64,000 nucleotides of DNA from an uncultured SAR116 cluster alpha proteobacterium (GTDB lineage: Bacteria > Pseudomonadota > Alphaproteobacteria > Puniceispirillales > Puniceispirillaceae): assembly GCA_902622515.1 (NCBI GenBank), contig CACNQE010000003.1:124001-188000 (forward strand), in the 5' to 3' direction. Shown here piece after piece: positions 19,879 to 59,500 of the stretch (positions are counted from its first letter, which is position 1; every line of letters begins with the position of its first letter). A model generated the notes under the pieces. That model was not told the origin of the DNA. It made no database searches and saw only the letters and a list, made by a program, of their open reading frames with translations. A program made the position numbers and the translations under genes.

Positions 19879-20260
19879 TTCATTCCAAAAACTAAATTTA
19901 AGTTAGATATTTTATACTCCTCACTCAAAACTATGAGCTAGTGTATTATTTTTTTAAAAGCTTTTTTAGCATACACGGTCACATTTTTTTCCCTATTCAC
20001 AAGTAAATTTCTCAACATTTTTATTGTAAAAATTAGCAATTGACTCTAAAAAAATAATGTATGCCCAAGCTTAAGAGAACAGTTATCAAAACTCAGAAAT
20101 TCTGCTACTTTATTATAGTCTAACGCATTCCAATCTACCACTGCAACCTTAAGCTAATTTATCTACCTTTACTTTAATCATTGAAACATATTGGTTATAT
20201 TCTAGATGTATAAAGAAAAGTCTTATGCTAATGAAGTCTAAAAGTAACAGGATACGCAGA
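19879..20260. other. Intergenic region upstream of manB with a short coding remnant
   Basis: The 382 bases divide divergent genes. TTGAAA near 20183 with a TAGATG-like box 16 bases on may be a manB promoter. On the minus strand 20046-20153 stays open and reads KVAVVDWNALDYNKVAEFL and LKLGHTLFF before its stop; this looks like the C-terminal tail of an enzyme, perhaps a sulfotransferase-like one, but it is too short to be sure. Confidence 0.3.
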
Positions 20261-21628
20261 ATGGCGAAACTTACTTGCTTTAAAGCCTATGATATTAGAG
20301 GCGAGCTCGGTGTCAACATAGATGCAAAAATTGCCTACCGCATCGGTCGTGCCGTTGCTGAGCATTTCAGCTCAAAAAAAGTCGTGGTTGGATGGGACGC
20401 GCGTGAGACCTCTGCTGAATTTGCAGAGGCGGTATCAAATGGCATAATGGATGCAGGCGCAGATGTATTAGACATCGGGCTTTCAGGGACAGAGGAAATG
20501 TATTGGGGTGTAACAGAATTTAAAGCTGATGCCGGCATAGTTGTAACCGCCTCTCATAATCCTATAAACTATAATGGGATGAAAATCGTTAAATCAGACT
20601 CGCGTCCGCTTGATGACGAAATTGATTTTAAAATTATTAAAAAATTAGCTGAAGATGAAGCGTGGGAGAAAAATATTCGCAAAGGAGTACGCTTAGATAT
20701 TGCTGTGAAGGCCCGTATGAAATACGTAAAACAAATAGTTGGCTTTATAGAAATTCGAAAACTTAAACCTCTTAAAATGATTGTTAATTGCGGAAATGGT
20801 GCTGCGGGACCAACCTTTGATGCCATTGCAGACTCGCTTATAACAGATGGGGCGCCTCTTGAAATTATCAGGATACATCACGAGCCTGATTACACCTTTC
20901 CAAATGGTATTCCAAATCCCCTTCTTGTTGAAAACAGGCCTGCAACTGCAAATGCTGTTGTGAATAAAGGGGCTGACCTAGGCGTTGCTTTCGATGGTGA
21001 TTTTGATAGATGCTTCTTCTTTGATGAGACTGGAGCCTTTATTGGAGGGGAATATGTACTGAGCCTTCTTGCAACGAGCTTTTTGGAGAAAAACCCAGGG
21101 TCTAATATTATTCATGATCCAAGAGTGATTTGGAATGTTCAAGATATTGTCAAAAGTAAGGGCGGTAAAACAATACAGTCAAAAACTGGGCACGCATTTA
21201 TCAAGCAGGAGATGAGACGGACACAGGCCATCTATGGTGGCGAGATGTCAGCCCATCATTATTTTAGAGATTTTGCTTATTGTGATAGTGGTATGTTACC
21301 GTGGCTATTAATCATAGAATTACTCTCAACAACTGGCATGACTTTAAGCGCGCTTGTGAAATCACAATTCGAGGCCTTCCCAAGTAGCGGCGAGAATAAC
21401 TTCACTGTTAAGAACGCAGATGCTGCCATTGAAAAAGTCTTGCGAAAATATAAACCATCTGCCCTTTTTATCGACAATACGGACGGGGTGAGCCTTGCTT
21501 TTGAGGATTGGAGGTTCAATTTGCGCAAATCCAACAATGAACCACTAGTGCGCCTTAATATCGAAGCTCGGGGTAATTCGGTTGATATCAATCAAAAACT
21601 AGCAGATATTAAGAGGCTTATTGTCTAA
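20261..21628 (+). CDS. manB: Phosphomannomutase/phosphoglucomutase
   Basis: This enzyme interconverts mannose-6-phosphate and mannose-1-phosphate, the step before GDP-mannose. The ATG at 20261 has AGGA (20249-20252) before it and gives a 455-residue protein whose first residues, MAKLTCFKAYDIRG, match the CpsG/ManB type; starts at 20225 or 20231 would add an unneeded tail. The phosphoserine loop is VTASHNPINYNGMKI (about residues 93-107), the metal loop FDGDFDRCF (about 244-252) and the sugar loop GGEMSAHHYF (about 326-335). It is the only intact manB here; two broken 3' copies lie at 26328 and 29964. It works with manC. Confidence 0.93.
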   Translation: MAKLTCFKAYDIRGELGVNIDAKIAYRIGRAVAEHFSSKKVVVGWDARETSAEFAEAVSNGIMDAGADVLDIGLSGTEEMYWGVTEFKADAGIVVTASHNPINYNGMKIVKSDSRPLDDEIDFKIIKKLAEDEAWEKNIRKGVRLDIAVKARMKYVKQIVGFIEIRKLKPLKMIVNCGNGAAGPTFDAIADSLITDGAPLEIIRIHHEPDYTFPNGIPNPLLVENRPATANAVVNKGADLGVAFDGDFDRCFFFDETGAFIGGEYVLSLLATSFLEKNPGSNIIHDPRVIWNVQDIVKSKGGKTIQSKTGHAFIKQEMRRTQAIYGGEMSAHHYFRDFAYCDSGMLPWLLIIELLSTTGMTLSALVKSQFEAFPSSGENNFTVKNADAAIEKVLRKYKPSALFIDNTDGVSLAFEDWRFNLRKSNNEPLVRLNIEARGNSVDINQKLADIKRLIV

Positions 21629-22149: not shown

Positions 22150-22890
22150 ATGACTACGAAAACCAGAAAAGCGGTTATACTTACTGGAGCAGCAGGGGGT
22201 ATCGGAACAGCTATTTACGATGTGCTTAAAGAGAATTATGAAGTATTGGGTTTTGATTTAATTACAAATGAGAAAATAGAGTTTCTAGATTTAAATGAAT
22301 TTGCAAAATCTGAAAAAGCCCAGAATCATTTCTATGAAGCTATAACTAACAAATGCCTTAAAAATAATTTAACAATATATGGTATCATTAATAACGCCGC
22401 AATCCAAAAGTTAGGTTCGCTAGAACAATTAAATTTGAATGATTGGGAGCAGACCATTTCCGTCAATCTGACAGCTCCTATGTTCCTATCCAAAATTTTT
22501 AAAAAAGAATTAAGTTTGTCCTTTGGAGTAATTATCAACATTTCAAGTGTGCATGCTTTAAGTTCCAAATATAATTTTAGCTTTTATGCAACCAGCAAGG
22601 CTGCTTTAAGCGGACTTACACGTTCGCTAGCCCTAGAAATGGCACCTCATGTTAGAGTTAATGCAATCCTACCAGCTGCAATGGAAACAGATATGTTAAA
22701 AAAGGGGTTCTTAAATAAAGAAGAGCAATTGAACTTGCTGAAAGATTACCATCCGTTAAAAAGAATTGGTCAGCCCTTTGATATTGCAGCCCTCGTCAAG
22801 TATCTACTATCAGATCATTCTAAATTTATTACTGGTTCAAACATACCAGTTGACGGCGGGATATTATCTAGGCTGCACGACCCTGATTAG
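22150..22890 (+). CDS. Short-chain dehydrogenase/reductase (SDR)
   Basis: This 246-residue classical SDR has the cofactor motif LTGAAGGIGTAIYDVL (about residues 11-26), NNAAIQKLG (about 82-90), the catalytic serine in INISSVHALSS and the YATSK pair Tyr/Lys (about 142-146), and ends in the usual TGSNIPVDGG. It oxidises or reduces a hydroxyl/keto group with NAD(P). It opens a five-gene operon (SDR, lactonase-like, GT2, cytidylyltransferase, 2-hydroxyacid dehydrogenase) with touching or overlapping frames, so it likely acts on a sugar or sugar acid that is later CMP-activated. Confidence 0.9.
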   Translation: MTTKTRKAVILTGAAGGIGTAIYDVLKENYEVLGFDLITNEKIEFLDLNEFAKSEKAQNHFYEAITNKCLKNNLTIYGIINNAAIQKLGSLEQLNLNDWEQTISVNLTAPMFLSKIFKKELSLSFGVIINISSVHALSSKYNFSFYATSKAALSGLTRSLALEMAPHVRVNAILPAAMETDMLKKGFLNKEEQLNLLKDYHPLKRIGQPFDIAALVKYLLSDHSKFITGSNIPVDGGILSRLHDPD

Positions 22891-22899
22891 GGAAATATT

Positions 22900-23676
22900 A
22901 TGATTGAAAAATACAATAAACAACGCTGTCTTCTCGGAGAAGGGCTTTATATTTTTGACGGAATTCCCCACTGGGTCGATATACTTGATAGAAAAATTTA
23001 TATTGGGGAGGAGGAAACAATTAAAGTTGATTTCATTCCAAGTAGCGTTTTGTTTGCGAATAAAGATTTTTTAATTCTGGCTGGTGATCAAGGAATTATC
23101 AAATTAGATGGAAAAGGAAATATAATTTCTACAAAAGAAATTTCAGGTCACAATCCTGAAACACATAGAATGAATGATGCCGTTTTCTTCGACGAAGATT
23201 TCCTCATTATTGGTTCAATGTCAAAGGAAAACCCAGAAACAATTCCTGGATATATTTATACTATTTCTAAGGGAAAAATTAAAAAATTAGAAAAAGAAAT
23301 TTTTATTCCAAATAGCTTTATTAAAATTGATGAAAACGTTTTAATAACGGATTCTAAAACTAAAGAAGTATTTAGGCTAGATCTTTCAAGAGAAAAATTT
23401 GACCTTTGGACTAAATTTAATGGTATTGGAACACCGGATGGCGGGTGTCTCAATGAAAGATCAAATCCAATTTTTGCAATTTGGGATGGGTCTTGCCTTC
23501 AAGAATACAATCGCTCGGGGGAAAAGTTAAATAGTGTTAAGTTACCAGTTAAAAGACCAACTAATTGCAAATATAGCAAACAACACAATTGTTTTTTTGT
23601 TACCTCTGCTTCTGATGGTCTTTCACCAGCTACCAAATCAGATCTGAATGGGTATTTGCTAAAGATAACATTATGA
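22900..23676 (+). CDS. SMP-30/gluconolactonase-like beta-propeller protein
   Basis: The 258-residue protein follows the SMP-30/gluconolactonase pattern: LGEGLYIFDGIPHWVDILDR at residues about 12-31 (family start with the metal Glu), HRMNDAVFFDEDFLIIGSM near 88-106 (the RxND metal motif), IFIPNSF and LITDSK near 131-147, and TPDGGCLNERSNPIFAIWDG near 177-196. Such enzymes open sugar lactones using Ca or Zn. AGGGAAAT precedes the ATG and the SDR stop is nine bases away. It could hydrolyse a lactone made by the SDR or the dehydrogenase. Confidence 0.8.
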   Translation: MIEKYNKQRCLLGEGLYIFDGIPHWVDILDRKIYIGEEETIKVDFIPSSVLFANKDFLILAGDQGIIKLDGKGNIISTKEISGHNPETHRMNDAVFFDEDFLIIGSMSKENPETIPGYIYTISKGKIKKLEKEIFIPNSFIKIDENVLITDSKTKEVFRLDLSREKFDLWTKFNGIGTPDGGCLNERSNPIFAIWDGSCLQEYNRSGEKLNSVKLPVKRPTNCKYSKQHNCFFVTSASDGLSPATKSDLNGYLLKITL

Positions 23677-24554
23677 AAAAAATATCAATTATAATAAGAA
23701 CATTAAACGAAGCTAAATATCTTCCAGAGCTTCTCGAAGGGATTAAGCAACAGTTATTACCAGAAATTTCAATTGAAACAATAATAGTGGATAGCGGGTC
23801 TAAAGATGAAACAATCAATATTGCAAAAAATTATAACTGTAAAATAGTTCATATTGCTAAATCTGAATTTTCATTTGGCAAATCACTAAATATTGGATGT
23901 GAAGCAGCTAATGGTGAAATCCTAGTGTTTGTTAGCGGTCATTGTGTTCCAGTCGACATAAATTGGATAAAGAATCTTATAAACCCAATCCTAAAGGGCA
24001 AGGCATGTTATGTTTATGGACGCCAAATTGGAAGAGATACTACTATGTTCAGCGAAGAAAGAGTATTTAGTAAATTCTTTCCAGAAGATGGCAAGTATAG
24101 TTCACCAAGCTATTTTTGCAATAATGCAAACTCCGCAATAAAAAAAACTATTTGGTTGAAGTATAGATTTAACGAAGAGGTTACTGGATTGGAAGATCTA
24201 GAACTGGGTAAACGATTGACTGAAAATAGTGGTAAAATCGAATATTCAAATGAATCATGTGTTTATCACATTCATAATGAATCATGGATTAAAATAAAGA
24301 ATAGATATGAACGAGAAACGCTTGCTTTCTTAAATTTTGAGCCCTCAATGAAACTCTCATTTTTTGAAGTTATAAAAGGATTTTTATTAAGCCTATTAGA
24401 TGACTTAAGTAGTGAGGGGTTTAAGTTAAAAATTTTACGTAAAATTATGAGTATTTTGTATTATAGGTCTGCCCAATATATAGGTTATTGGCTTGGAAAC
24501 AAACGCGGGAAAAATATAACTGCAAAAACAAAAAATAGGTTTTATTATCCATGA
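23673..24554 (+). CDS. GT2-family glycosyltransferase
   Basis: The 293-residue protein is a GT-A fold inverting glycosyltransferase: ISIIIRTLNEAKYLPELLEG at the N-terminus, the nucleotide site IIVDSGSKDETINIA (about residues 38-52), and the acceptor region GLEDLELGKRL (about 168-178). The usual DxD position reads FVSGHCVPVD, so its metal use may be atypical. The ATG overlaps the previous stop (ATGA), so it is coupled to the lactonase-like gene, and the next gene overlaps its own stop the same way. It probably transfers the CMP-activated or another sugar of this cassette. Confidence 0.87.
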   Translation: MKKISIIIRTLNEAKYLPELLEGIKQQLLPEISIETIIVDSGSKDETINIAKNYNCKIVHIAKSEFSFGKSLNIGCEAANGEILVFVSGHCVPVDINWIKNLINPILKGKACYVYGRQIGRDTTMFSEERVFSKFFPEDGKYSSPSYFCNNANSAIKKTIWLKYRFNEEVTGLEDLELGKRLTENSGKIEYSNESCVYHIHNESWIKIKNRYERETLAFLNFEPSMKLSFFEVIKGFLLSLLDDLSSEGFKLKILRKIMSILYYRSAQYIGYWLGNKRGKNITAKTKNRFYYP

Positions 24555-25237
24555 CACATTACAACATTGTTGCCTTGATGCCAATGAAGGCTGAAAGTCA
24601 AAGAGTGAAAAACAAAAATTTTAAATTACTTGCTAGTAAGCCTCTTTTCCACTGGGTTTATGATAAACTTAATAATATAGAAGAAATAGAAAAAATTATA
24701 ATAAACACAGATGCTCCAGAAGAAAAAATTTTAACTAACTTAAAAGATACATCAAAATTAATTATTAGAAAAAGAAAAAACCACCTTATTGGTCATGAAA
24801 TATCAATGAATAAAATATTGATGGATGATATTATGAATGTAAAAAGTGCAATATATCTGATGACACATTCTACAAACCCTTTAATTTCTGAAAAAACTCT
24901 CTCTGAAGCAATAAATAAGTTCAAGACAATAATATGTGAAAATGAATATGATTCTCTTTTTTCTGTTACAAAAACGCAGGAACGATTTTATAGAAGTGAT
25001 GCGTCTCCAATAAATCACGACCCTAATAATCTTATTCAAACACAAGATTTAGAACAGTGGTATGCCGAAAATTCAAATCTTTATCTCTTTACCGAAAATA
25101 GCTTTAAAGCAAATAATGCACGAATAGGAAAAAACCCTTTTTTATTTGAAACTTCTAAAAGAGAGACAATTGATATTGATACTGAAGATGATTGGTCAAT
25201 AGCTGACAGGATAATGAGTTTAAATGAAAAACATTAA
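24551..25237 (+). CDS. Acylneuraminate/Kdo-type cytidylyltransferase (NeuA-like)
   Basis: The 228-residue enzyme should activate a 2-keto sugar acid as its CMP derivative. The N-terminal signature is VALMPMKAESQRVKNKNFKL (about residues 7-26), a variant of the family's P-loop-like A-R-x-G-S-K-R-x-x-x-K-N; the glycines and serines are replaced by KAESQRVKNKN, as in several bacterial relatives. IIINTDAPE and LMTHSTNPLIS follow, and ETIDIDTEDDW near the end holds the metal aspartates. No NeuB/KdsA-type synthase is in the window, so the substrate must be made elsewhere or be unusual. Confidence 0.87.
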   Translation: MTHYNIVALMPMKAESQRVKNKNFKLLASKPLFHWVYDKLNNIEEIEKIIINTDAPEEKILTNLKDTSKLIIRKRKNHLIGHEISMNKILMDDIMNVKSAIYLMTHSTNPLISEKTLSEAINKFKTIICENEYDSLFSVTKTQERFYRSDASPINHDPNNLIQTQDLEQWYAENSNLYLFTENSFKANNARIGKNPFLFETSKRETIDIDTEDDWSIADRIMSLNEKH

Positions 25238-26162
25238 AACAAAAATATTGGTGACTTGCCCTCCAATGATACAGGCCAAAAAACATTTTCTGCCTTTATT
25301 TGATAAATTAGGTTGGGAAGCAGTCATTCCCGAGTTTAATCAGATTGTTTCAGAGGAAAGATTGTGCGAACTTGTTAAAGATGTAGATGGTTGGATTATA
25401 GGTGATGATGAGACTACATATAATGTAGTCAAGTCGGGAAAAATGGGAAAACTAAAAGGGGCCGTAAAATGGGGAGTTGGAACTGATAATATAAATTTCA
25501 AGGCATTCGAAGAATTCCAAATTCCAATAACAAATACCCCAGGAATGTTCAACGATGAAGTGGCTGATATCGCTATAGGTTACTTACTATCATTAACTAG
25601 AAACATAAAATCAGTTGATGAAGAGGTAAGAAGAGGCAATTGGTATAAACCTCAGGGTATGTCAATCAGAAATAAAACTGCTGCAATTGTAGGATTTGGA
25701 AATATTGGCAAGAATTTAAATAAAAAATTAAAAATATTTGGAGTCAATACCTTTGCGTTTGATCCTAAATATGAAACACAAAAAAAGTTTGATAATATAC
25801 CAATAAATTTATGGCCAGATAATTTAGAGAAAGCAGATTTCATATTTTTTACATGTGCTTTAAATAAAAATAACAAACACATGTTCGATTTTGAAACCTT
25901 AAAAAGGGTAAAGAAAGGCGTAAAAATAATCAATGTTGGTCGAGGCCCTTTAATTCTTGAAGAGGCTCTCATCCAAGGGATAAACTATGATATCATTTCC
26001 TCTGCTGCATTGGATGTATTTGAGGTGGAACCTCTAAGTTTAAAAAATAAGCTTACAACTTTAAAAAATTGTATCTTAGGGTCTCATAATGCTTCGAACA
26101 CTAAAGAGGCTGTAATAAAGACTAACGAACAGGCAATAAAAATTTTAAAGAACAAACTATAA
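25224..26162 (+). CDS. D-isomer-specific 2-hydroxyacid dehydrogenase (SerA-like)
   Basis: This 312-residue NAD-dependent enzyme oxidises a 2-hydroxy acid or reduces a 2-keto acid. Its landmarks are the substrate loop WGVGTDNINFKAFEEF (about residues 78-93), NTPGMFNDEVADIAIGYLLS, the NAD motif VGFGNIGKNL (about 155-164), the catalytic Arg in INVGRGPLI (about 234-242) and Glu/His (DVFEVEP; GSHNAS near 291). It overlaps the cytidylyltransferase gene by 14 bases. A 3-phosphoglycerate role is unlikely in this context; a sugar-acid substrate is more probable. A diverged internal fragment lies at 29827-29963. Confidence 0.88.
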   Translation: MKNIKTKILVTCPPMIQAKKHFLPLFDKLGWEAVIPEFNQIVSEERLCELVKDVDGWIIGDDETTYNVVKSGKMGKLKGAVKWGVGTDNINFKAFEEFQIPITNTPGMFNDEVADIAIGYLLSLTRNIKSVDEEVRRGNWYKPQGMSIRNKTAAIVGFGNIGKNLNKKLKIFGVNTFAFDPKYETQKKFDNIPINLWPDNLEKADFIFFTCALNKNNKHMFDFETLKRVKKGVKIINVGRGPLILEEALIQGINYDIISSAALDVFEVEPLSLKNKLTTLKNCILGSHNASNTKEAVIKTNEQAIKILKNKL

Positions 26163-26327
26163 GCTGATTCAATTACCAAAAAATTAATGCAATCAAAACT
26201 TTTAACATTAAACTAAATTGGAAATGCTATTCAAAAAATAAGGAATGTTAAATCTAGTATTTTAGACTATTTTTGTGAATTACTTTTATTTAATTGAAAA
26301 AAATAACTCATGTATAAAACTATTCGT
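26163..26327. other. Intergenic spacer between dehydrogenase gene and manB remnant
   Basis: I see no coding sequence or clear regulatory site in these 165 AT-rich bases. They lead directly into the degraded manB fragment. Confidence 0.4.
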
Positions 26328-26589
26328 TTCGCGATACTGGTATGGCTCAATGGCTGTTAATCATAGAATTACTCTCAGCCACAGGCCTGTCTCTAAGCAC
26401 ATTTGTGAAATCACAGTTTGAAGCGTTCTCGAGTAGCGGCGAAAATAACTTCATCATTTAAACGCGGATGCTGCCATTGAAAGAGTGTTGCAAAAATATA
26501 AACCAGATACGCTATCTATCGGCGAGACAGGTGGTGTGAGCCTTGCTTTAGATAATTAGCGGTCACAACGCAAATGTTATAATGAGACT
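26328..26589 (+). pseudogene. Degraded 3' fragment of manB (unit 1)
   Basis: These 262 bases align without long gaps to manB from about 21278 on: both read CTGTTAATCATAGAATTACT- or its near-identical form, then GAAATCACAGTTTGA, AGTAGCGGCGAAAATAAC and GATGCTGCCATTGAAA. Stops and small deletions break the frame (for instance TTTAAACG where manB reads TTAAGAACG, and TAG where it reads TGG). It shares several changes with the second fragment at 29964 that the intact gene lacks, so both come from one already broken copy. It runs at about 26589 straight into a cysD fragment. Confidence 0.85.
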
Positions 26590-26647
26590 CTGCTGCAACT
26601 TCACGAAAAATGTGAATTGCTTCTGCTTCTAAATTAAATCGCGCCAA
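26590..26647 (-). pseudogene. Degraded 5' fragment of cysD (unit 1)
   Basis: The minus strand from TTG at 26647 reads [20 protein letters not shown], matching the start of CysD encoded at 32176-33066 ([20 protein letters not shown]), including the unusual TTG start. After about 19 codons it is cut off by the manB fragment. The bases 26648 to about 26760 still resemble the region upstream of the intact cysD. The rest of cysD and all of cysNC are missing from this copy. Confidence 0.87.
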
Positions 26648-28150: not shown

Positions 28151-29557
28151 CTAACGATTATAGGGGTCAGATACACGTACGATATCATCCTCACCAAAGT
28201 AACTTCCCATTTGCACTTCAATTACAATTACATCCTCATCAGTATCATTGCCAAGCGCGTGTTGAGCGCCAAGCGGTATATCAATCGATTGCCCGGGTTC
28301 CAAATAAAGCGTCTCGTCTTCTAATTGCACTGTCGCTCGGCCTTGCACCACAACCCAGTGCTCGGAGCGCTTATAATGATATTGAAGCGATAGATGATGG
28401 CCAGGATTTACCGTTAATCTCTTAACCTTGCATATTTTACTATCAAGTAAGTTTTCAAACATACCCCATGGGCGATATTCGAAACTATGCTCAGTTGCCG
28501 CCGGTAGGTTAAGGCCCTCTAGCATTTCCAGGGCGTCCTTTACTTTTTCTGATTTACCTTTTTGGACAACAAGGGTGGCATTGTCATCATCCACGATGAT
28601 GATGTCTTTTACACCCACAGCGGCAATTGTTCTTGATGATGCGTGGATGAAAGTATTTTGAGTATCAATCTGAACACTGTTGTCTGATGAGTGCCCGTCA
28701 GGCTTATCTGCATCAATCAGTTTAGACAAACTATCCCAACTTCCAACATCACTCCAATGACCCTCAAATGGCACCATCGCAATATTAGCTTCCTTTTCTA
28801 AGATGGCATAGTCAACCGATATGGAAGTGATTTTTTCTAAATGCGCTTTGCGAAGCGTAATTTCATCCTTGTTAATATCTTTATTTTCCCAGCAAGTGAC
28901 TGCTGCTTGATATAATTCTGGCTGATGCTGCTTGAAGCTCTTAATACATTTCTGAGCACTAACAACAAATATTCCAGTGTTCCAGTAGTAATTACCCTCA
29001 GCCAAATAGCTCTTAGCTGTTTTTAAATCTGGCTTCTCTGTAAAACTAACAACTGCCCTTTTCTCACCTTTACCGATAGCTTGGATATATCCATATCCCG
29101 TTTGCGGCTCAGTGGGCTTAATTCCAAAGATAACCCAGCGGTCCTCAGAAGCAGCGATTTTAGAGGCAGTATGAATGATTTGAATGAACGGACTACTATC
29201 CTCTATCCAATGGTCTGCAGGCATGATTACCAATATATCATCTTTAGTAGCATTAAGGGCAGCCATTAAAATAGCGGGCGCTGTATTCCTGCCTACTTCT
29301 TCAAGAATATAAGATGCCGCTCTTTTCAGCTTTTTTAATTCTTTGCGACATAAAAAATTATGAGCCTTATTACTAACAATTGTAATTCGTGCGTTTTGAG
29401 TGGTATTTACTCTATTTAAAGTATCACCAAAAAGTGTCACTCCTTTTTGGAATTCTATGAATTGCTTTGGAAGGGACGCCCTGCTAGAAGGCCACAAACG
29501 GTAGCCAGACCCTCCGGAGAGAATTACATAAGTTAAGTTTGATTGACTAAGAAGCAT
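28151..29557 (-). CDS. manC: Mannose-1-phosphate guanylyltransferase / mannose-6-phosphate isomerase
   Basis: This 468-residue bifunctional enzyme makes GDP-mannose and can also isomerise fructose-6-phosphate to mannose-6-phosphate. The nucleotidyltransferase domain (about residues 8-290) has ILSGGSGYRLWPSSRASLPK and VVSFTEKPDLKTAKSYL; the type II isomerase cupin (about 350-465) starts EYRPWGMFENLLDSK and holds LSLQYHYKRSEHWVVVQG. It is the intact one of two manC copies; the other at 33285-34685 has a stop where this one has the Trp of RPWG. It supplies GDP-mannose together with manB. Confidence 0.94.
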   Translation of the reverse strand: MLLSQSNLTYVILSGGSGYRLWPSSRASLPKQFIEFQKGVTLFGDTLNRVNTTQNARITIVSNKAHNFLCRKELKKLKRAASYILEEVGRNTAPAILMAALNATKDDILVIMPADHWIEDSSPFIQIIHTASKIAASEDRWVIFGIKPTEPQTGYGYIQAIGKGEKRAVVSFTEKPDLKTAKSYLAEGNYYWNTGIFVVSAQKCIKSFKQHQPELYQAAVTCWENKDINKDEITLRKAHLEKITSISVDYAILEKEANIAMVPFEGHWSDVGSWDSLSKLIDADKPDGHSSDNSVQIDTQNTFIHASSRTIAAVGVKDIIIVDDDNATLVVQKGKSEKVKDALEMLEGLNLPAATEHSFEYRPWGMFENLLDSKICKVKRLTVNPGHHLSLQYHYKRSEHWVVVQGRATVQLEDETLYLEPGQSIDIPLGAQHALGNDTDEDVIVIEVQMGSYFGEDDIVRVSDPYNR

Positions 29558-33284: not shown

Positions 33285-34685
33285 TTAGCGTTTATAGGGG
33301 TCTGACACACGCACAATATCATCCTCACCAAAGTAGCTCCCCATTTGTATTTCAATTACAATTACATCTTCATCAGTATCATTGCCAAGCGCATGCTGAG
33401 CTGCGAGTGGAATATCTATCGATTGGCCAGGCTCCAAATAAAGCCTCTCTTTTTCTAATTGCACGGTTGCTTTGCCTTGTACAACCACCCAGTGCTCTGA
33501 GCGCTTATGATGATATTGAAGCGATAAATGTTGGCCTGGATTTACCGTTAATCTCTTTACCTTGCATATTGCGCTATCAAATAAGTTCTCAAACATGCCT
33601 CATGGTCGATATTCAAAGTTGTGCTCTCCAGCGGCAGGTATATTGAGCACCTTTAGCATTTCCAGGGCGTCTTTTACTTTTTCTGATTTACCTTTTTGAA
33701 CAACAAGCGTTGCATTATCATCATCCACGATAATGAGGTCTTCCACACCCACTGCAGCAATTGTTCTTGATGATGATTGAATGAACGTATTCTTGGTGTC
33801 AATCTGAACGCTGTTATCTGATGAGGAACTGTTTGTCTTATCTGCCTCCAACAATTTTGACAAACTATCCCAGTTTCCAACATCACTCCATTGACCCTTA
33901 AATGGCACCATCGCGATATTTGCTTCCTTTTCTAAAATGGCATAATCAACCGATATCGACGGTATTTTCTCTAAATACGCTTTACGAAGCGTGATTTCAT
34001 CTTCGTTAATATCTCTGTTGTCCCAGCACTCTTTTGCTGTTTCATATAATTCTGGCTGGTGTTGCTTGAAGCTCTTGATACATTTACCTGCACACACAAC
34101 AAAAATGCCTGAGTTCCAGTAATAATTGCCCTCCGCCAAATAGCGCTTGGCTGTTTCTAACCCTGGTTTCTCTGTAAAGCTTACTACGGCCCTTTTCTCA
34201 CCTTCACGATTAGCTTTGATATATCCATATCCCGTTTGCGGCTCAGTGGGCTTAATTCCAAAGATAACCCAGCAATCCTCAGAAGATGCTATTTTTGAGG
34301 CAGTATGAATGATTTGATTGAACGCATTGCTATCCGCTATCCAATGATCTGCGGGCATAATCGCTAACACATGATCTTCGGAAGCATTTAGTGCAGCCAT
34401 TAAAATAGCGGGCGCCGTATTCCTGCCTACCTCTTCTGAGATGTAGGAGGCTCCGATATTTAGCTTCAATAATTCTTTACGGCACAAAAAATTATGTGCC
34501 TTGTTACTAACGACCATAAGTTGTTTACCTTCACTACAATCAATCCTTTTTAGAGTATCACTAAAAAGTGAGTGTCCATCTCGAAACTTTATAAATTGCT
34601 TTGGAAGAGATGCCCTACTAGAAGGCCACAACCTCGAGCCAGAACCGCCAGATAAAACAACAAAATTATTTTTAAGTTTTTTCAC
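33285..34685 (-). pseudogene. manC: Second manC copy, split by one TGA at the domain boundary
   Basis: One frame from the ATG at 34685 encodes a full-length paralogue of the manC at 28151-29557, with LSGGSGSRLWPSSRASLPKQ at the start and LSLQYHHKRSEHWVVVQG in the cupin. At 33600-33602 the codon TGA replaces the TGG of the conserved RPWG, so translation gives a 361-residue nucleotidyltransferase domain. Two codons later an ATG at 33596 could restart a 103-residue isomerase cupin (MFENLFDSAICKVKRL). Because the stop falls exactly between the domains, both might still work separately; otherwise this is a young pseudogene. Confidence 0.82.
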
Positions 34686-49790: not shown

Positions 49791-52133
49791 TTACTTCTTT
49801 AATTGAGCCGGATCAAATTTAGGTTTGATACTAAAGCTCTGATTTGATGCGCTATTTCTCTGCGGAAATTTAGCCTCATTAGCATTCTTAACAATCTGAG
49901 CCGCACTTTGATGGTCAGTTTGAGCCTTAAGGAATTGGTCGGTTGACCCAATACCAGCTACTTTACCGTTCTCCATAATAATCACTTTTTCAACCAGAAC
50001 CAGCAAAGAGGTTCTATGTGTAATAACAACCAATGTTGTATCATAATCAGATTCTTTGAATTTTTTGACAAATTGTGTCTCTGACTTAGCATCCATTGAG
50101 CTAGTTGGCTCATCTAATATTAGAATAGATGGTTTTTTAACAAGCGCTCTTGCAAGAGAAACTGCTTGCCTCTGGCCTCCAGAAAGGGATTCACCTCTTT
50201 CCTTTAGCTTCATTTTATATCCATCTGGATGCCTATTAGTAAGTTCAGATACTCCAGAGATATCACCTGCCCAAAGAATTGTTTCTGGGTCAACTTTTAC
50301 TGAGCCCAATGAAATGTTTTGCTCAACAGTATCTGACATGAGCCACACATCTTGAGCGGATATACCCATATGTTCTCTTAAATCGGAAGGAGCAATCTGT
50401 CTTATGTCAACGCCATCAATAAGGATTTTCCCAGAATCTGCTTCATACAAACCAGCAATTAATCTTCCAATTGTCGTCTTACCAGAGCCTACATGACCCA
50501 ATATTGCAACTTTTTCTCCTGGCTCAATTTTAAAAGATATATCATCTAAAACTGGCTCTGACTGGTCAGGATAAGTGAAGGTAACATTTTTGAATTCAAT
50601 AGAACCATCAAAGCGGCCTCTTGGAAGAAAAAAGTTGTCTTTGGGATGCTCTATATCCTCTCCCATAAACTCTTTTAGCACTTCATAACTTTTTCCTATT
50701 TGGTTTAATCTAACCAAAATGGATGAGAGTTGTGCGAAGGGTGAGAGTGCTTTTCCAGATAAAATCATACATGCGATAATCACACCAAATCCCGCCTGAC
50801 CGGTAGAAACCAAAATAGCGCCAAGTCCAACAACAGACATTTGCATCAGCTGCTGCACACTCGCCGTAACATTGGAGGCAAAATGGCTAACATCTTTCGT
50901 TTGCTCTGAAATATGAGCTTGTTTTTCTAACACACCCCTAAGCCTTCGACGCATGAAACCGCCCGCACCAATCATCTTCAATGTTTCAAGACCCGTTAAA
51001 GACTCAACCATTACCGAACTCTTTATCTGACCCTCCTCAAAAGATGTATCAGATAGTGCCTTCATTTGAGGCTGAATATATAGGGTCGCTACAATAACTA
51101 AAACAATTGCAATTATGACAGGTGCGATCAGCCAACCACCTACCATGTAGATTACAAGTAAGAATATAAAGGCAAACGGTACGTCAATTAGCGAAGTTAG
51201 TGTTGCAGAAGCAAAAAATTCTCGGATGTTTTCAAACTGTTTGAGTGTATCTGCAAGCGCGCCGACACTGCCCTTTTTTGATTTGTATTTTATATCCATA
51301 ACTTGAGCGAATATTCGGTCTCCAAGTGTTAGGTCCGAACTCACACCAGCGATGCTTAAATAATGATTTCTTATTGCTTTAGTTACATAATCGACAAATA
51401 CGAGAACTACTAAACCAGATGCTAACACAAACAGACTATCGATAGCATTTGATGGAATAATCCGCCTATAAACAATCATTGAAAATAATGAGACCCCTAG
51501 AGCAAAAATATTTGTCATAAGGGATGCCAAACCTGATTGAATGTATAATGACCGATTATCCCAAATAGTTGACCAAAACCAATGTGACTCAATACCAGGT
51601 ATAAATGCTAGTTTAGTCTCAGCTTTTTTAAAACAATCTACAAAAACCCAATCTGATTGTGTCTCATTAAAATATTTATCTAAATTATCTTCAGGAACCG
51701 TTATTTCTGGGTCTGAAGAAAAACCACGTATTTTATCGATATTATCATCGTGATTAAAAAAGAAGGCATGACCTTCTTTGAGAGCCAGATAAATGTGATT
51801 GACACCATTTCCTGAATAAATATCACGCTCAATTTTCTTCCAAGTTGTCTCCTCAACAACTAAATTCCTAGCCTCCATTATTTCTTTTAAATCGCTTAAT
51901 TCCCAGTGTTCGAGGTTTTGAAATTCCAAAGACCTAAACTCAGACGCAGCAACAGATTGATTTAAAGAAGAGGTAATGGATGCGCCTAAATCAGCTAACG
52001 AAAAATGAAAGGAGCCCTCTTCCTCTAATTCAACAGGCGCACTTTTTTCCTCGGCTAATTGCTCAGCAGTAACAGTTTTTAAATCAATTTTACCTAACTC
52101 AGTTGTTGTTTCCAAGGTAGTTAATTTCCTCAA
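49791..52133 (-). CDS. Type I secretion ABC transporter, LssB/LapB type
   Basis: The 780-residue exporter drives secretion of the adhesin. An N-terminal C39-like domain (about residues 75-175) lacks a catalytic Cys in its first motif, as in exporters that bind but do not cut their substrate. The membrane domain spans about 185-480 and the ATPase follows with Walker A GHVGSGKTTIGRLIAGLYE, signature SGGQRQAVSLARAL and Walker B SILILDEPTSSMD. The frame begins with TTG at 52133 inside the tolC-like gene (35-base overlap); no ATG occurs for about 85 codons, so TTG or a nearby TTG (52115) is the start. Confidence 0.92.
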   Translation of the reverse strand: MRKLTTLETTTELGKIDLKTVTAEQLAEEKSAPVELEEEGSFHFSLADLGASITSSLNQSVAASEFRSLEFQNLEHWELSDLKEIMEARNLVVEETTWKKIERDIYSGNGVNHIYLALKEGHAFFFNHDDNIDKIRGFSSDPEITVPEDNLDKYFNETQSDWVFVDCFKKAETKLAFIPGIESHWFWSTIWDNRSLYIQSGLASLMTNIFALGVSLFSMIVYRRIIPSNAIDSLFVLASGLVVLVFVDYVTKAIRNHYLSIAGVSSDLTLGDRIFAQVMDIKYKSKKGSVGALADTLKQFENIREFFASATLTSLIDVPFAFIFLLVIYMVGGWLIAPVIIAIVLVIVATLYIQPQMKALSDTSFEEGQIKSSVMVESLTGLETLKMIGAGGFMRRRLRGVLEKQAHISEQTKDVSHFASNVTASVQQLMQMSVVGLGAILVSTGQAGFGVIIACMILSGKALSPFAQLSSILVRLNQIGKSYEVLKEFMGEDIEHPKDNFFLPRGRFDGSIEFKNVTFTYPDQSEPVLDDISFKIEPGEKVAILGHVGSGKTTIGRLIAGLYEADSGKILIDGVDIRQIAPSDLREHMGISAQDVWLMSDTVEQNISLGSVKVDPETILWAGDISGVSELTNRHPDGYKMKLKERGESLSGGQRQAVSLARALVKKPSILILDEPTSSMDAKSETQFVKKFKESDYDTTLVVITHRTSLLVLVEKVIIMENGKVAGIGSTDQFLKAQTDHQSAAQIVKNANEAKFPQRNSASNQSFSIKPKFDPAQLKK

Positions 52134-53544
52134 ATTGATTACATAAATATATTAACTGATATTTTGACAACGCCCTATCAATAATGCTGTCAATTAAGTT
52201 TTTTCCAGAATTAAAAAGTTCTTCCTGTGCAGCTAAGACCTCAAATAAGCTAATTCTACTGTAAGAGTAAAGCTCTTTTGTAATATTGTAGCTGTCCTTT
52301 GCTCCTTCAAGTACTAACATTTTTGATGAAACAGCAGAAACTTTACCATCATATTCAGAAAATGCGTCTTCTAGCTGTTGCTTTAATGAAATTCTAATGC
52401 GCCTTTCCTCAAACGAAAGGTTTGATAGATTTAAACGAGCCTGTTGAATATTTGTATCTGCGATACCACCGTCAAACAGACTAGTGTTATAAGATAGGCC
52501 AAAAGAAAGAGTGTCAGAAAATATTCCAGAAGCTTCACTATAACTTCTAGCAACGCGAGCTGATGAATTAATGGAACCATATTTTTCTTGCTGAAGCGTT
52601 TCGAGCTCAAGATTTGCAATATCTATGTTTAACTTTACGAGTGCAAGGTCGGGATTGCTTTCAATGTATTCGTCAATATTTGTAATATCAAAATTCTCAG
52701 TATCGAATTCTCTCGGTAAAATGTATGGGGCTGCCTCTTTTGCAAAGATTTTTCTATAGTTTGCTCTAGCTACCGCTAAATTCTCTAGAGAGCCTGCAAG
52801 CGCTCCAAGGGCTGCAGCTACTCTTGCTTCAGCTCTGATCACGTCGGCAGAACTACTGGCACCTAAATCCATTCTCTGTCTAATGAAATTAACAAATGTT
52901 TTTCGAGATGCTAAGTTCTCTCTAGCAAGTCTTGTTTGAAGCAATGCCCTTTGCACTTCATAGAATGCTGACATTGCCTGAAGAAACAAGTCATCATTTG
53001 CTTTTTTAAAATTCACTTCAGTAATTTCAAGTCTTATTTTTTCCTGTTCTTTTTTAAGGTCTAGTACTCCAAAATCATATATTCTCTTATTTGCAGTAAT
53101 ATTAGGATTTAAAGAGCCACCCTGGTTTGATGAACCATTCGAATTTTGCGTAATACTGTAATTAACGCCACCTCCTGCGTTAATGGTAAAGTTCCTTGAA
53201 TTGTCAATTTGCTCAATATTTAAAAGGCTTTGCGATACTGCTACTTCTGCTTTGTTTATGATTGGTGATATATCTATCGCTGTAAAAATATCCTGCAACA
53301 ACGGCTCAATATCAAGCCTCTGGGTAGGGTCCTGCTCACCAAAAATTATTTGGTCAACAAGAACAATCATGTCTCTTCCTATATTTTCAATACCTTGAGG
53401 TACATCAGTAGCTAGGTCAGCACTTTTTGTGGTTTCTTCTTGTGCTAACTCTGGAGGTTCTAATTGCGCTAATGCATGAGAAACCAAAGAAATAGAAACT
53501 ACCAATGGTAGTGATATACGCCAGAGATTTTGCAAAAAATACAT
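52099..53544 (-). CDS. TolC-family outer-membrane secretion channel
   Basis: The 481-residue protein begins with a signal peptide (ISLPLVVSISLVSHALAQ) and then a spacer of about 70 residues. Two TolC repeats follow, each with a long helical hairpin: one around VNFKKANDDLFLQAMSAFYE and LRQRMDLGASS-like FIRQRMDLGASSSADVIRAE (about 160-235), the other around RRIRISLKQQLEDAFSEYDG and YSYSRISLFEVLAAQEELFN (about 385-455). It forms the trimeric outer-membrane channel for the adhesin. Its ATG overlaps the adhesin stop (TGATG at 53542-53546). Confidence 0.92.
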   Translation of the reverse strand: MYFLQNLWRISLPLVVSISLVSHALAQLEPPELAQEETTKSADLATDVPQGIENIGRDMIVLVDQIIFGEQDPTQRLDIEPLLQDIFTAIDISPIINKAEVAVSQSLLNIEQIDNSRNFTINAGGGVNYSITQNSNGSSNQGGSLNPNITANKRIYDFGVLDLKKEQEKIRLEITEVNFKKANDDLFLQAMSAFYEVQRALLQTRLARENLASRKTFVNFIRQRMDLGASSSADVIRAEARVAAALGALAGSLENLAVARANYRKIFAKEAAPYILPREFDTENFDITNIDEYIESNPDLALVKLNIDIANLELETLQQEKYGSINSSARVARSYSEASGIFSDTLSFGLSYNTSLFDGGIADTNIQQARLNLSNLSFEERRIRISLKQQLEDAFSEYDGKVSAVSSKMLVLEGAKDSYNITKELYSYSRISLFEVLAAQEELFNSGKNLIDSIIDRALSKYQLIYLCNQFEEINYLGNNN

Positions 53545-56500
53545 CAGACCGCGTCGACTTTATCGAAATCTGCCATTCTTAAATTAAATGCAGAGTCAAA
53601 TTCTCTAACAAAGGATAAATCGAAGTAAATTGTTAGGCTTTCCTGCAATGGGTCTGGGCCGCTAATTTGAGCGGTTTGAATATTATTTTCATCAACGTCT
53701 GATAATTCGATTTCGTGATTATCGTAGCCCACGAGTGTTACTCTATCACCCTCATAACGATTAAAGTCCTCTAATCGAACCTGGTAAATTTTCTCTAATG
53801 TTTCATTAATTTCTTCTGGATTAATTAAAACAAAATTATCTGAGCCTGCTCCCCCAAGAAGATAGTCTTCATCACCCACATTACCTCCAGTTGCAATTAA
53901 TGTATCATTTCCAAGACCGCCAATAAGTCTGTCACTTCCAGTATCTCCAAATAATACAGAATCTGTATCTTTTGCAACTAAGGTATCGTCATTTTTAGAG
54001 CCAGATAAACCAACATAAGCATCTGCTGAGCCTGCTAAATCTATTTTTTCGCCATTAGCAGGAACATTGATGTTCATAGCTCCAAGCTGGGTTTTATAGG
54101 CATAATCAAATTTTGCATCAGCAATAATACCTAAAGCATTGCCGATATCATCATAGGCAAAATCATCTCCAAAAAAGGCTTCTCGAGTTGCTTCTGAACC
54201 CGCAAGTGAAATAATTGACTGGTCGAAATCAAACTCAAATGCACTATTAAACGGATTTTCTGAGGTCACATCTATTTTTTCATCAAAACTAATCGCGTCT
54301 CTAATTTGTGTAATAGCTGTTTGTTCGTCAGCCGATAACGCATTAGTGTTTTCGATGATAACAAGCGAGGTGAGCATATTAGCGCCGACTTGTTTTTGAA
54401 TGGATATTTCATAATTACCTGATATTTGGTTTTTTGAAATAGATGCCTCTGAGGGCAATGAACCATCCTGACTTTTGCTTATTCCAAAACCAGTAAACGC
54501 TATAATATCACTTGGATTGAAATCTGTTATGACATCGGTTCCAGCGTCTCTTTCACCATCCTCATCAGAAACAGATATAATAAACGTATCATCTCCATCT
54601 GAACCAGTTAGAACATCATCACCTTTACCACCCAAGAGAATGTCTGAGCCAGCAGCACCTACTAAATAATCGTCACCACCCTTACCTGAGAAGGTAACAG
54701 AAGAGGTTTGGCCACCCTTCGCAACCATTGTATCATCTCCTGACGTGCCTACTATTGTCTCTATAGAAGAAATATCCCTATTTGTTACAGCAGAATTAGA
54801 AGTTGCCGTGCTTGGGTTAGATAAATAGAGTGTGCCTGCATTTAAATCTACAATTGCTTTTCCACCAGAAGCCACAGTATTGGTTAACGATAAAGTATCA
54901 TTACCTGCACCAGCATTAATGGAACCAGAGGAGCCACTAACAGGTATGATAATATCATCTCCACCACCAGCATCTATGTTTGACACCGTATTATCGACAA
55001 TCACATTATTATCTAATCCATGGGCAACCGCAAAATTATAGTTGAACTCCACAAATCTAGAGTAGGCATATCGTGTTGCAGCAGACTCCACAACAATTCC
55101 ATCAGGAATGCCAACTCTCGTTTTAAAATCAAGATTTTCAGTTCCTAATGCTGTTTCCGGTGAGAGCTTGATTACCGCTGTATCTAAATCAGAGGCTGAT
55201 AATCTAACACCATAAAGCGGTTCAGGATTATAATTTGTCGCTATTTCAAAAATCTGATTTGAAGGTATTGCAGCTCCATCTACTTCAATTGAAATATTTT
55301 GAGGCAATGAGACAAGTTCGAGTATATGATTTGCGTTCATTTCTGGAATACGAACAATATCTGTTACGTTCAATCCATTTGCCATTAAAGATGCAGCAGA
55401 AAGTTCTGCATCCGTTAAGTCTGTATTGAACCCAACATGAGGAACTGGAGGTGTGTCGCTTTGAATATCAATATTCTCGGACTCAAAACTTTGAGAACTT
55501 ATATTAGGCTTGTTTGCAATTGACACCTCTGCATTAATAGTTCTACTTCCAAAGCCGATTTCGGTTTTTGGAAGGGAAACGAGTGCTTTATCGACCGCTA
55601 CAAAATTATTTCCATCCCCTGCAATATAAATCTGGTATGCCGATGTTTTACCTACCTGTTGAGCTGCAAAAGTAGTTGACCCTATCGTTATTTCCGATCC
55701 GTCCACAATAGACGAGCCAGACAAAACTACTCCAACACTATCAGAAGAATTCACACTCGAAAATTCAGCTATAGAAATATTAAACTCTACGTTTTCACCA
55801 GTGTCGGTTCTTCCATCGTTAATAAGTGCTTCATCTAGTAGCTCTGAAGCTGTGCTATTCTCATAAATTTGAATTAAATCCGCGGCAGTATTAAACTCAA
55901 ACCCGATATTTGATGATTGAACCATCCCGCTCGCAGCATCTGTTTCACCAACACTTACAGTTATTGCTTCAACCAATACATCTGCGGTGCCTACAAAATT
56001 ACCCGTCTTTCTGAAAAGAGCATCTTGACCACCCGTGGAGAGTTGTTCTCTCGTTAAAGTAAGGGGCTCAGTGAATGGAATAAATTCAGTGGTACCTGCT
56101 GGCTTAATTTCTAAAAAGCTATTCTCTGCAATTTTTACTTCTAGTAATTCCTCGTTACCAGGGTCTGCAAGAGATATTAAGTCTGAAATAAGAAATTCGC
56201 TTTCTGAGACAATTAAATCTGAAGTAAAGCTAACACCATCAAGTGCCGGAATTACATCTACAAAAAATGACGAAGGCGCTGAATTTCCAGCATCATCAAT
56301 AGGAAATTTCTGAGCCAGTAAATTATTGTTTTCATCAAAATAAGAGGCCTTAGGAATAACGCTGAAATTTATATCTTGACTTCTATTCAACGCGGAGGCG
56401 TTTGCCGGGTCGGGGCCAAATATAACTCCTTGTGTTAATTGACCAGCATTTACGCTTAGAACACCGCCTGTCTCAACAAGCGTTGAACCACCTATCGGCG

Positions 56501-59500
56501 TAATTTGGAACCCTGATGGTATGCCGATAAATTCAATGTCAACGTTGTCAGGATTTATTCGACCATTCACAGAAGCAGCAATGTCGAAAATAGCCGTTTC
56601 TCCCTCAGTCAATGTAAATGTAGCTGATATAGGGCTTCCATCACTGGCCACTAACTCTGGTATAGAAAGAGGCGTACTAGATATGAATATTTGCTTTGAA
56701 ACAGACGCAGATAAACTATCTGGATTATCAATTGAAGCAGCTGATGCGTTTACACTGAAGGAGGGTTGCTCGTCAGATGTCTTTATTTCGATGCTGTTTA
56801 AAAAGGATGATATTTGAGTTTGAGTACCAGATAGTGTAACTGGTTCTGTTAAAAACTGACTAGATGAAGTGTCATAAAATCCTGAAGAGCCGTTAATTTC
56901 AATAAACTCTGAGGAGAGAGTAAGGGTAAGCTCCAACGATTCATCAGAATCTATCGGTGATAAAGCCTTGATAATGGATGACAAAACAACAGACTGACTG
57001 CCAAAGATAGCCGTACCGGATACGCTAAAGCTATCCGCGTCAATACCATCACTTATACCCTCCACCGTAAACGCTTGAGAAGCTTCATCTATTTTTGATT
57101 TTGAAGTGTCTTCCACTTCGATTGTAACGGCCTCTGCCCTTACAACAATATTACCGTCAAAATACTGTGGTGTTTTTATATTGCCTGTAATATTTACAGA
57201 CTTTAGCCCGGCGTTGTTTGTTATTTGATAGAAACTCTCATCCAGCTGAAGGCTATACCCATTGAAACCACTATCGGTAACACCAGTAAATTTAATTTCG
57301 CTCCCATTCGTCGAAATGAACGATGGCGCAGTATCTAATCCATTTCCAGACACAAATAATGTTACGGTACCAACTTCTTCTGAGCCGTCAGTATCTTTGG
57401 GATTAATTGAGATATTCACCGGAACTAATCCTGTGGCTTCAGTGATCGTTGTGCCCGCACTATCTATTAAAACGTCTGACCCTTGAGCAACCGCTCCTAT
57501 AGTAAAGTTTAGAGGTATATTATCAATTATACTCTCGCTTGAGCCATCTATTGACTTTGCTGATGCCTTAAGCTTGAAATCACCACTTAAATAAGCTGGA
57601 ACTGTGACCGATAAATCACCGGCATAAATTGGGTATGGTAGGGTTATGGTCCCACCTGATGATAGAATATAGCTGTTTCCATTTAGCGAAAATGTTAGAT
57701 CAGGATAAGTACTGGAGGCATCTGCTGCCTCAATTGTAACTTGAACATCTTCACCAATATCCGTTTTCTCAACGCTAAATTCATCAAAAATAATGGTAAC
57801 AGGAGAAGCTGCCTCAAGACCTTCCTCTGCGGATTGAGAGACATTTACCTCAAGTCTGTCAGCTACAGCTTCAACTTGCACTGTTACTTCTCGGCTTACA
57901 GTCCTTGTATCGCCTGTCATCGCATCAATCAATGCAGTCGCTGAAATTTCTAATTCTAAATCGCCAGAGAAATCTTCCCTTGTAAAAATTCTCAATCTTT
58001 CAAGAACTTCGGTAGGTGCTGTGGTTGTTCCATCCCAAATGGTAAGCCAGGTTTCAGTAGGCTCACCCTCCAGACGCGCTCCTTGTGATAAGTTAAAATA
58101 CGTTCCTGCATGCTTGGCGCGAACAGCAACTAAAATATTTTCGGGCAATGTTTCACCAGCACTCAGATTAAATTCAGTTGCCCAATTACTTGTTCCTTCA
58201 TTGAAAATGCTTGAAATATCAAAGCCATTTTCTTCATCTTCAAAATAAGTTGTATCCGTAGCGACCGAATTATTTAATGTAACTGCATCCATTGCCCCAG
58301 TTAATGAAGAAGTACTATTTATTGGTAACCAGATATCAAACATAGAAGAATTAGCAGTGAATGCACCAACATCCGATGATTGATTCCCTGTAGAGTCTAA
58401 ATGAGCAAAATTACCCGAAATAGCTCCTGATGTTGTGCTTCCTGCTATCAGGACGTTATCTTGTTCTACGTTTGTCTCAGAGTACTTTTTTAAATCAATT
58501 TCAAGGGATGTAATTTTTGCTAGCTCTTCAAAAGATGCATCACCCAAACCATTGGATGCTTCGTCAAACCATAAAAATGCTTTTTTATTCGTGTATGTTT
58601 CTATATCCGCGAGACTTAGCATACCATCAGTTGATATTGCTAATAAATCATTGACCGCATCTGTGCTTGCATTTCCCTCGCCCGAACCGGTGCTGTATCT
58701 GTCAAAATATTCCGTAATTAGATTACTTCCATCAATTTTTACTGAGCCAGAAGTAAGAGTTGGTATCCCATTTTGGTCGACATCAAGCAAGACAACAAAT
58801 CCGTCATTCGTTCCATTTGACGATAACCAGCCTACATTATCGGTATCTCCATCCGCATCAATATCGAAATCAACCGAAGGTAGAAAATCTAAACCATCGC
58901 CATCTACATCAATAACAATCGGGTCGGCAAGTGCGGAAGCCCCTGTTGAATTAGATACAAAATCAATTGCAAAACTATCATCAGAAGCTTGGTTAGTAAT
59001 ACCAATTTTATCGACCGAAAATGCCTGGAATGTTACATTTGTTAGTGCCGCGTTAGAGGTCAAAGTAATTTCATCAAGGCTCGTCAAATCAGCATCTTGG
59101 TAAAAATCCTCCATTGAGAATACAAATACACCATCCACGTCTGCAGGAGCACCGATTGTATTTCCAGCAGAATTTGTAAAGGTAGCTCCTGTTGCACCCG
59201 TTACAAGAACACTAACGAGATCCGTTGAATTTCCATCGTGATTAGTAAAATCAATTGTAAACTTGTTATTGGTTGCATCAGTATGTGCCAAAGTAAAGGC
59301 TGGCTTTGTTGCAGGCTGCAAAAATTCAACATTTAATGCCTTACTACCACCATCTGTGGCAAAATCCATTGATGTATCGTCGCCGTTGATTACTTTTGCG
59401 CCGTTGATTACGGATAATTCTGTTGCAAATGGCGTGTTAGCTGTTTCGAAGCCTCTATCAACACTAACCGCCTCGACTATAAAATCATCGTCAAATGCTC

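Follow-up and report, generated by a model that had tools for sequence, protein, structure and literature searches.

A stretch of 64,000 nucleotides from an uncultured alphaproteobacterium of the SAR116 cluster (GenBank assembly GCA_902622515.1, contig CACNQE010000003.1, positions 124,001 to 188,000; here called the window) carries a compact cassette of five genes at positions 22150-26162 that very probably forms one functional unit for a sugar activated with cytidine monophosphate (CMP), as judged from comparison with related loci. To our knowledge, all known CMP-sugar routes, i.e. those to sialic, legionaminic and pseudaminic acid and to Kdo, add phosphoenolpyruvate (PEP) to a sugar. No gene for a NeuB- or KdsA-type enzyme lies inside the cassette, as had been noted in the original prediction made from the letters of this stretch. 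Instead, the cassette may lead from an aldose to a CMP-ulosonate via two oxidations and the opening of a lactone, a chain of reactions whose probability we place slightly above even, and lower if the final glycosyl transfer is included.

In the proposed pathway, an unphosphorylated aldose would be oxidized at C1 with NAD+ to a lactone by the first gene product, a short-chain dehydrogenase/reductase (SDR; 22150-22890, 246 amino acids, Pfam adh_short_C2, 3.6e-41), which is a candidate NAD-dependent aldose 1-dehydrogenase. The second step, conversion of the lactone into the aldonate, could be catalyzed by the SMP-30/gluconolactonase-type lactonase (22900-23676, 258 amino acids, Pfam SGL, 2.9e-21) or, in other loci, by a UlaG-like metallo-hydrolase. 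Then, a D-2-hydroxyacid dehydrogenase (HADH) of a 'TCPPM' subfamily (25224-26162, 312 amino acids, Pfam 2-Hacid_dh and 2-Hacid_dh_C, 4.1e-44), the candidate aldonate C2 oxidase of step three, would oxidize the aldonate at C2 with NAD+ to a 2-keto-aldonate. Following ring closure, the anomeric hydroxyl could be coupled in step four to CMP from cytidine triphosphate (CTP) by the NeuA-like cytidylyltransferase (CT; 24551-25237, 228 amino acids, Pfam CTP_transf_3, 9.4e-19), a candidate CMP-2-keto-aldonate synthetase. Finally, a GT2 glycosyltransferase of GT-A fold (23673-24554, 293 amino acids, Pfam Glycos_transf_2, 9.5e-21), the candidate CMP-sugar transferase, would pass the ulosonate from the CMP-ulosonate to a glycan. 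The setting would be a horizontally exchanged surface polysaccharide locus without a PEP-condensing synthase. All five products exceed the curated Pfam cut-offs, and the open reading frames (ORFs) lie on the + strand, overlapping or nearly touching as originally described, with a 9-bp gap between the SDR and SMP-30 genes and overlaps of 4, 4 and 14 bp at the SMP-30/GT2, GT2/CT and CT/HADH junctions.

With five CTs as query, at least 574 relatives were found in GTDB genomes, the best 80 of which were taken together with as much as 10 kb of flanking DNA at either end; neighbour counts refer to genes within 6 kb of the CT among these best 80 loci. The loci, many of them from metagenome-assembled genomes (MAGs), are assigned by their record titles to Pseudomonadota, Nitrospirota, Verrucomicrobiota, Planctomycetota, Cyanobacteriota, Bacteroidota, Chlorobiota, Chloroflexota, Desulfobacterota and Acidobacteriota. 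GT2 genes accompany 70 and HADH genes 71 of the 80 CTs (72 under slightly different score thresholds), the GT2 being located immediately 5' of the CT in 69 loci and the HADH immediately 3' in 70. SDR genes were counted near 46 CTs, genes for MptE-like proteins near 45, lactonase genes near 43 (30 for a hydrolase of metallo-beta-lactamase (MBL) fold, 13 for SMP-30 enzymes) and HpcH aldolase genes near five. The complete five-gene set of the window, which the original prediction had proposed to search for, is also present in a Rhodobiaceae MAG (L080) and in Pseudoalteromonas sp. T1lg23B (L111), where the proteins are 31-53% identical. Hence, it is one form of a widespread cassette and no chance array. 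The SDR gene is the last of the set in both of these loci and the first in the window. Among 289 genomes of the same class, the HADH subfamily (E < 1e-80) occurs in five, the same five that harbor the CT at E < 1e-39, and a GT2 scoring above 360 bits occurs in three, adjoining the CT every time. Some of these class-genome sequences were part of the query alignments, which makes the coincidence partly circular; this does not apply to the remaining 284 genomes, from which they are absent. No CT relative was found in phage records. Neighbour clusters 12, 17 and 21, which overlap the CT or GT2 genes, look like antisense artefacts from GC-rich loci and were discarded; the two that were scanned gave no Pfam match.

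The CT itself scores 68.5 bits against CTP_transf_3 (PF02348; gathering cut-off 22.6) and remains below the cut-offs of the PseF equivalog TIGR03584 (66.8 bits, cut-off 205.7) and of KdsB TIGR00466 (18.1 bits, cut-off 155.2). The structure model of the CYTIDYLYLTRANSFERASE (pLDDT 90) is closest to CMP-Kdn, CMP-Neu5Ac and CMP-Pse synthetases (TM 0.73-0.82, about 20% identity), with the CMP-Kdn synthetase 9t4z as best Foldseek match (TM 0.82, 20% identity) and KdsB less close. Equivalents of the nucleotide and metal residues K21, N22, R71, D209 and D211 of the NeuA-type enzyme 1eyr are retained. When the 28 members of the CT family were placed in a tree alongside representatives of NeuA, PseF and KdsB, they formed one separate clade (support 0.999). 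All 28 have H and T at the positions of Q104 and R165 in 1eyr, which we take to be sialate contacts; Q and R are found there in sialate and Kdn enzymes, Y and S/T in PseF-type enzymes. By its modelled fold the CT is thus a CMP-sugar synthetase, but a specificity for sialate, pseudaminate or Kdo is not evident. The pocket, as far as its sequence tells, does not look purpose-built for sialic acid or Kdo.

Nevertheless, the CT might be an ordinary synthetase of CMP-nonulosonates or CMP-Kdo that receives its substrate from a NeuB or KdsA encoded outside the cassette, with the dehydrogenases and the lactonase serving another part of the glycan. The proximity of its fold to NeuA-type enzymes would fit this alternative, as would the kdsA and KdsB genes in the same cluster of a Thalassovita plasmid and the genome of the window itself (G000, 2.1 Mb), in which four NeuB matches were detected. 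NeuB is hence missing from the cassette, not from the genome. Three of the matches lie beside a cytidylyltransferase gene of their own (contigs C4, C5 and C25). The fourth (C1:312814-313527), which has a SAF domain, is situated between ORFs with a formyltransferase domain and DUF218 near guaA/guaB, and no CTP_transf_3 match was found on contig C1. This NeuB was considered as a cassette partner and provisionally set aside, since its neighbours (formyltransferase-domain, DUF218 and purine genes) show no link to the cassette. Among 46 cassette genomes, 21 gave no NeuB match and five merely a partial weak one, i.e. full-length NeuB is absent from 26. Judging by record titles, about a dozen of the 21 NeuB-free genomes stem from isolates, including Luteimonas lumbrici, Flavimaricola marinus, Sulfitobacter undariae, Desulfobulbus rhabdoformis and Methylobacillus caricis. 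Within the fetched stretches, NeuB was encountered at one of the 80 CT loci (L084), which also contains a second CT-like gene (cluster 18).

Most Gram-negative bacteria have KdsA for the formation of Kdo, and KdsA was abandoned as an absolute test: it is uninformative in Gram-negatives and informative only in cyanobacteria and one Chloroflexota MAG. In two cyanobacterial MAGs of unstated completeness (G323 with L098, G335 with L096), neither a KdsA above the cut-off nor a full-length NeuB was found; the two profiles share one weak hit there, a gene that probably encodes a DAHP synthase. No NeuB or KdsA gene therefore accompanies the cassette throughout. Moreover, the Thalassovita plasmid already possesses KdsB, and the pocket residues differ from those of sialate CTs. 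An ordinary CT supplied from elsewhere is consequently unlikely, and the comparison across genomes makes it highly probable that the cassette works independently of NeuB.

Turning to the proposed steps, the SDR possesses the intact tetrad N106/S133/Y146/K150 and an NAD-type D36. Its best NCBIfam profile is 'aldose dehydrogenase' (PRK06398, 157.9 bits, below the cut-off of 341), and a curated glucose dehydrogenase profile gave 152.5 bits (below the cut-off of 215). The lactonase of the window scores 76.7 bits against the SGL profile (cut-off 26.3), and its metal and substrate residues E14, R90, N92, N138 and D180 are invariant in nine cassette SGL proteins. In the PDB, the SGL family profile is closest to SMP-30 enzymes (7plb, 2ghs) and regucalcin. 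In other loci, the same role falls to a second fold that does not occur in the window, the UlaG-like MBL metallo-hydrolase, which is unrelated to SMP-30. Its nearest PDB relative of named activity is the L-ascorbate-6-phosphate lactonase UlaG (2wyl, 5e-23), with an unnamed hydrolase (3bv6) scoring marginally higher, and the H-x-H-x-D-H metal motif is invariant in the cassette family. The gene preceding the GT2 gene encodes an MBL hydrolase in 14 loci and an SMP-30 enzyme in three, while in 11 more (L048, L050, L078, L087, L095, L099, L101, L102, L104, L110 and L116) the GT2 carries an MBL domain at its N-terminus, the fusion proteins having about 551-595 amino acids. The two folds co-occur in none of the 80 loci (hypergeometric P 0.001, ignoring relatedness), and a lactonase is present in 35 of the 46 loci with an SDR compared to eight of the 34 others (Fisher P 4e-6, ignoring relatedness). 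That two different lactonase folds can stand in for each other is the strongest argument for lactone opening, which is likely to be a function of the cassette.

The SMP-30 gene of Roseobacter loci has as partner or near neighbour an SDR gene whose product best matches D-xylose 1-dehydrogenase (XylB; 274-280 bits, cut-off 400), and the loci with this SGL and XylB-like SDR combination are located in plasmid polysaccharide clusters. D-xylose was rejected as the substrate: the XylB-like SDRs remain below the cut-off and align with only a part of the SDR of the window, at 29% identity, and two of them lack the catalytic Lys. They hint at a free aldose as substrate, not at D-xylose in particular. 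On the Thalassovita plasmid, the SMP-30 and XylB-like SDR genes are found between kdsA and an MptE-like gene. This locus (L126, Thalassovita gelatinovora plasmid pAge77) has genes for KpsF, KdsB and KdsA directly before the SDR and SMP-30 pair, followed by GT2, CT and HADH; Kdo and the new sugar may here be made for one capsule.

The HADH contains both 2-Hacid_dh domains, and its triad R240/E269/H288 together with an NAD-type D180 is invariant in 25 sequences. Its nearest profile is SerA-type phosphoglycerate dehydrogenase. An NAD-type Asp favours the oxidative direction without proving oxidation. In biosynthesis, SerA and PdxB oxidize sugar-acid phosphates at C2, and enzymes of the GhrB type convert gluconate into 2-ketogluconate and back. 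Oxidizing an aldonate at C2 thus lies within the range of the HADH family and is reasonably probable for the cassette enzyme. In five loci of Verrucomicrobiota, Opitutales included (L074, L085, L108, L119 and L125), an HpcH/HpaI aldolase gene adjoins the CT gene and the cassette HADH, SDR and GT2 are absent; in L074, a HAD phosphatase accompanies the aldolase. Judging from their gene content, these loci could represent an aldolase-based variant of the CMP-ulosonate pathway. As both the HADH and the aldolase would yield 2-keto acids, their occurrence supports a 2-keto acid as CT substrate.

The aldolase loci also lend themselves to a different explanation, namely that the CT accepts a 2-keto-3-deoxy acid formed by an HpcH-type aldolase or by aldonate dehydration and that the HADH acts elsewhere, for example in forming hydroxypyruvate or a hydroxy-acid decoration. 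In addition to the five loci, an HpcH gene adjoins the distant CT of L039, and HAD phosphatases are encoded in L039, L040 and L074. Yet, the cassette includes neither an aldolase nor a sugar-acid dehydratase, neither recurs among the gene families that surround HADH-type loci, and the HADH gene lies immediately 3' of the CT gene in 70 of the 80 loci. This explanation, too, is improbable. Still less probable is that the product is a small acid linked to CMP, such as a 2-hydroxy acid, with the HADH as a reductase and the CT activating a non-anomeric hydroxyl. D-2-hydroxyacid dehydrogenases are reversible and might work in this direction, but both dehydrogenases of the window carry the NAD-type Asp, the fold and metal site of the CT are those of anomeric CMP-ulosonate synthetases, and the lactonase would be left with no clear role.

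For the last step, the GT2 model (pLDDT 91) matches structures of GT-A fold. A recognized DxD motif is missing; in our assignment, its expected place is taken by S-G-H-C-x-P, with S88, H90 and P93 invariant and G89 and C91 retained in 24 of 25 sequences. We know of no CMP-sugar transferase that belongs to GT2. The MptE-like proteins (PF01973) near 45 of the 80 CTs carry a GNGPSL motif (e.g. L061:14397-15278); we take them to resemble GT42 or Maf enzymes, which makes them possible CMP-sugar transferases. As a fixed partner of the cassette, however, the MptE-like protein was ruled out, since no such gene was found in G000. The GT2 is the best transferase candidate in the window because of its tight link to the CT, its fusion to the lactonase and the lack of an MptE-like gene in G000. 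Whether it uses a CMP-sugar we regard as evenly balanced from the genomic context. The broadest version of the proposal, a pathway spread over about ten phyla that produces non-3-deoxy 2-keto-aldonates by two oxidations and lactone opening, with the first GT2 enzyme of GT-A fold to use a CMP-sugar donor, is put forward tentatively, with the chances somewhat against it.

Several observations weigh against the oxidative pathway. Nearly half of the 80 loci lack an SDR and/or a lactonase within 6 kb, and the XylB-like SDRs without the catalytic Lys are those of L064 and L090. G000 encodes NeuBs, including the one without a neighbouring CT. The distant relatives L039 and L040 (CT 36-37% identical) hold an HADH together with an HpcH aldolase, so that the two are not always alternatives, and L040 additionally contains a NeuB-like ORF. 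Furthermore, an HpcH enzyme acting with pyruvate would normally give a 3-deoxy acid, which an oxidative route without a dehydratase would not. Lastly, the MptE-like proteins could be the real CMP-sugar transferases in other genomes. The original prediction of a 2-keto acid that arises by oxidation instead of condensation has thus been strengthened in one part, the opening of the lactone, through the exchange of lactonase folds; on the whole it is partly supported. Sequence comparison shows the gene set and its conservation, the intact active sites, the exchange of lactonase folds and the independence from NeuB, while the sugar itself, its oxidation at C2, the direction of both oxidations, the activated CMP product and the donor of the GT2 are what we infer.

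That the genes are unrelated neighbours in a hypervariable polysaccharide island, with no common pathway, is very improbable: the low G+C content of the five-gene insert (28-36% vs 41-42% in the adjacent pmm and galE) and the pmm fragment that follows it are typical of island turnover, but this view is already contradicted by the neighbourhood data, in which about ten phyla share the partners and their order, as well as by the lactonase-GT2 fusion and the overlapping genes. The cassette appears to be a part of a polysaccharide island that was exchanged not long ago. An intact phosphomannomutase gene (pmm, 20225-21628) precedes it, and the remnant of a second such gene with 57-66% identity to the intact copy and an in-frame stop follows at about 26318-26604 (+), which marks a recombination border. 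Further downstream, an intact mannose-1-phosphate guanylyltransferase gene (28151-29557) adjoins a second copy (33285-34685, - strand), in which a stop codon splits one frame into ORFs of 361 and 103 amino acids. The window also contains a 3414-amino acid ORF (53544-63788, - strand) with RTX calcium-binding repeats near its C-terminus and an ABC exporter gene close by (49791-52133); it probably encodes a type I secreted giant protein.

If the pathway holds true, acidic sugars activated with CMP would be made by a second type of chemistry across many bacterial groups. The annotations 'acylneuraminate cytidylyltransferase' and 'phosphoglycerate dehydrogenase', which two of the cassette genes now bear, would then be misleading in hundreds of genomes, and many polysaccharides would be expected to contain hexulosonic or pentulosonic acids. 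Hexulosonic acids do occur in bacterial polysaccharides, as the K3 antigen of E. coli contains 4-deoxy-2-hexulosonic acid (Dengler et al. 1988, as cited in PMC10433991). The exchange of lactonase folds and the aldolase variant provide concrete, testable predictions. A full-text search of the open-access literature retrieved no paper in which these genes appear together or an oxidative route to a CMP-ulosonate is described; since open-access papers only were covered, the novelty of the route is provisional.

Compared with known systems, the CT shares its fold, the K21/N22/R71 residues (1eyr numbering) and the DxD metal site with NeuA-type CMP-sugar synthetases (PDB 1eyr, 9t4z and 9ftb), from which it differs by an identity of about 20%, a clade of its own, H/T for Q104/R165, the lack of a NeuB partner and its association with HADH, SDR, lactonase and GT2. 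With the Kdo pathway (KdsA-KdsC-KdsB), the cassette would have in common that a keto acid is directly activated with CTP to a CMP-sugar, whereas PEP condensation and a KdsC-type phosphatase are missing and the CT is weakly similar to KdsB. Oxidative, non-phosphorylated sugar catabolism, for example that of D-xylose by XylB and XylC, likewise combines an SDR aldose dehydrogenase with an SMP-30 lactonase, and the SDR is XylB-like in some of the CT loci. In the cassette, this pair is tied to CTP activation and a glycosyltransferase rather than to a dehydratase, in what appears to be a biosynthetic setting. The metallo-hydrolase that replaces the SMP-30 enzyme has UlaG as closest named relative and conserves its motif, but is part of a polysaccharide cassette or even fused to the GT2 therein. 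Finally, the HADH is related to SerA/PdxB-type dehydrogenases via its phosphoglycerate dehydrogenase profile; unlike these, it represents a separate 'TCPPM' subfamily that is tied to the CT and is expected to act on an unphosphorylated aldonate.

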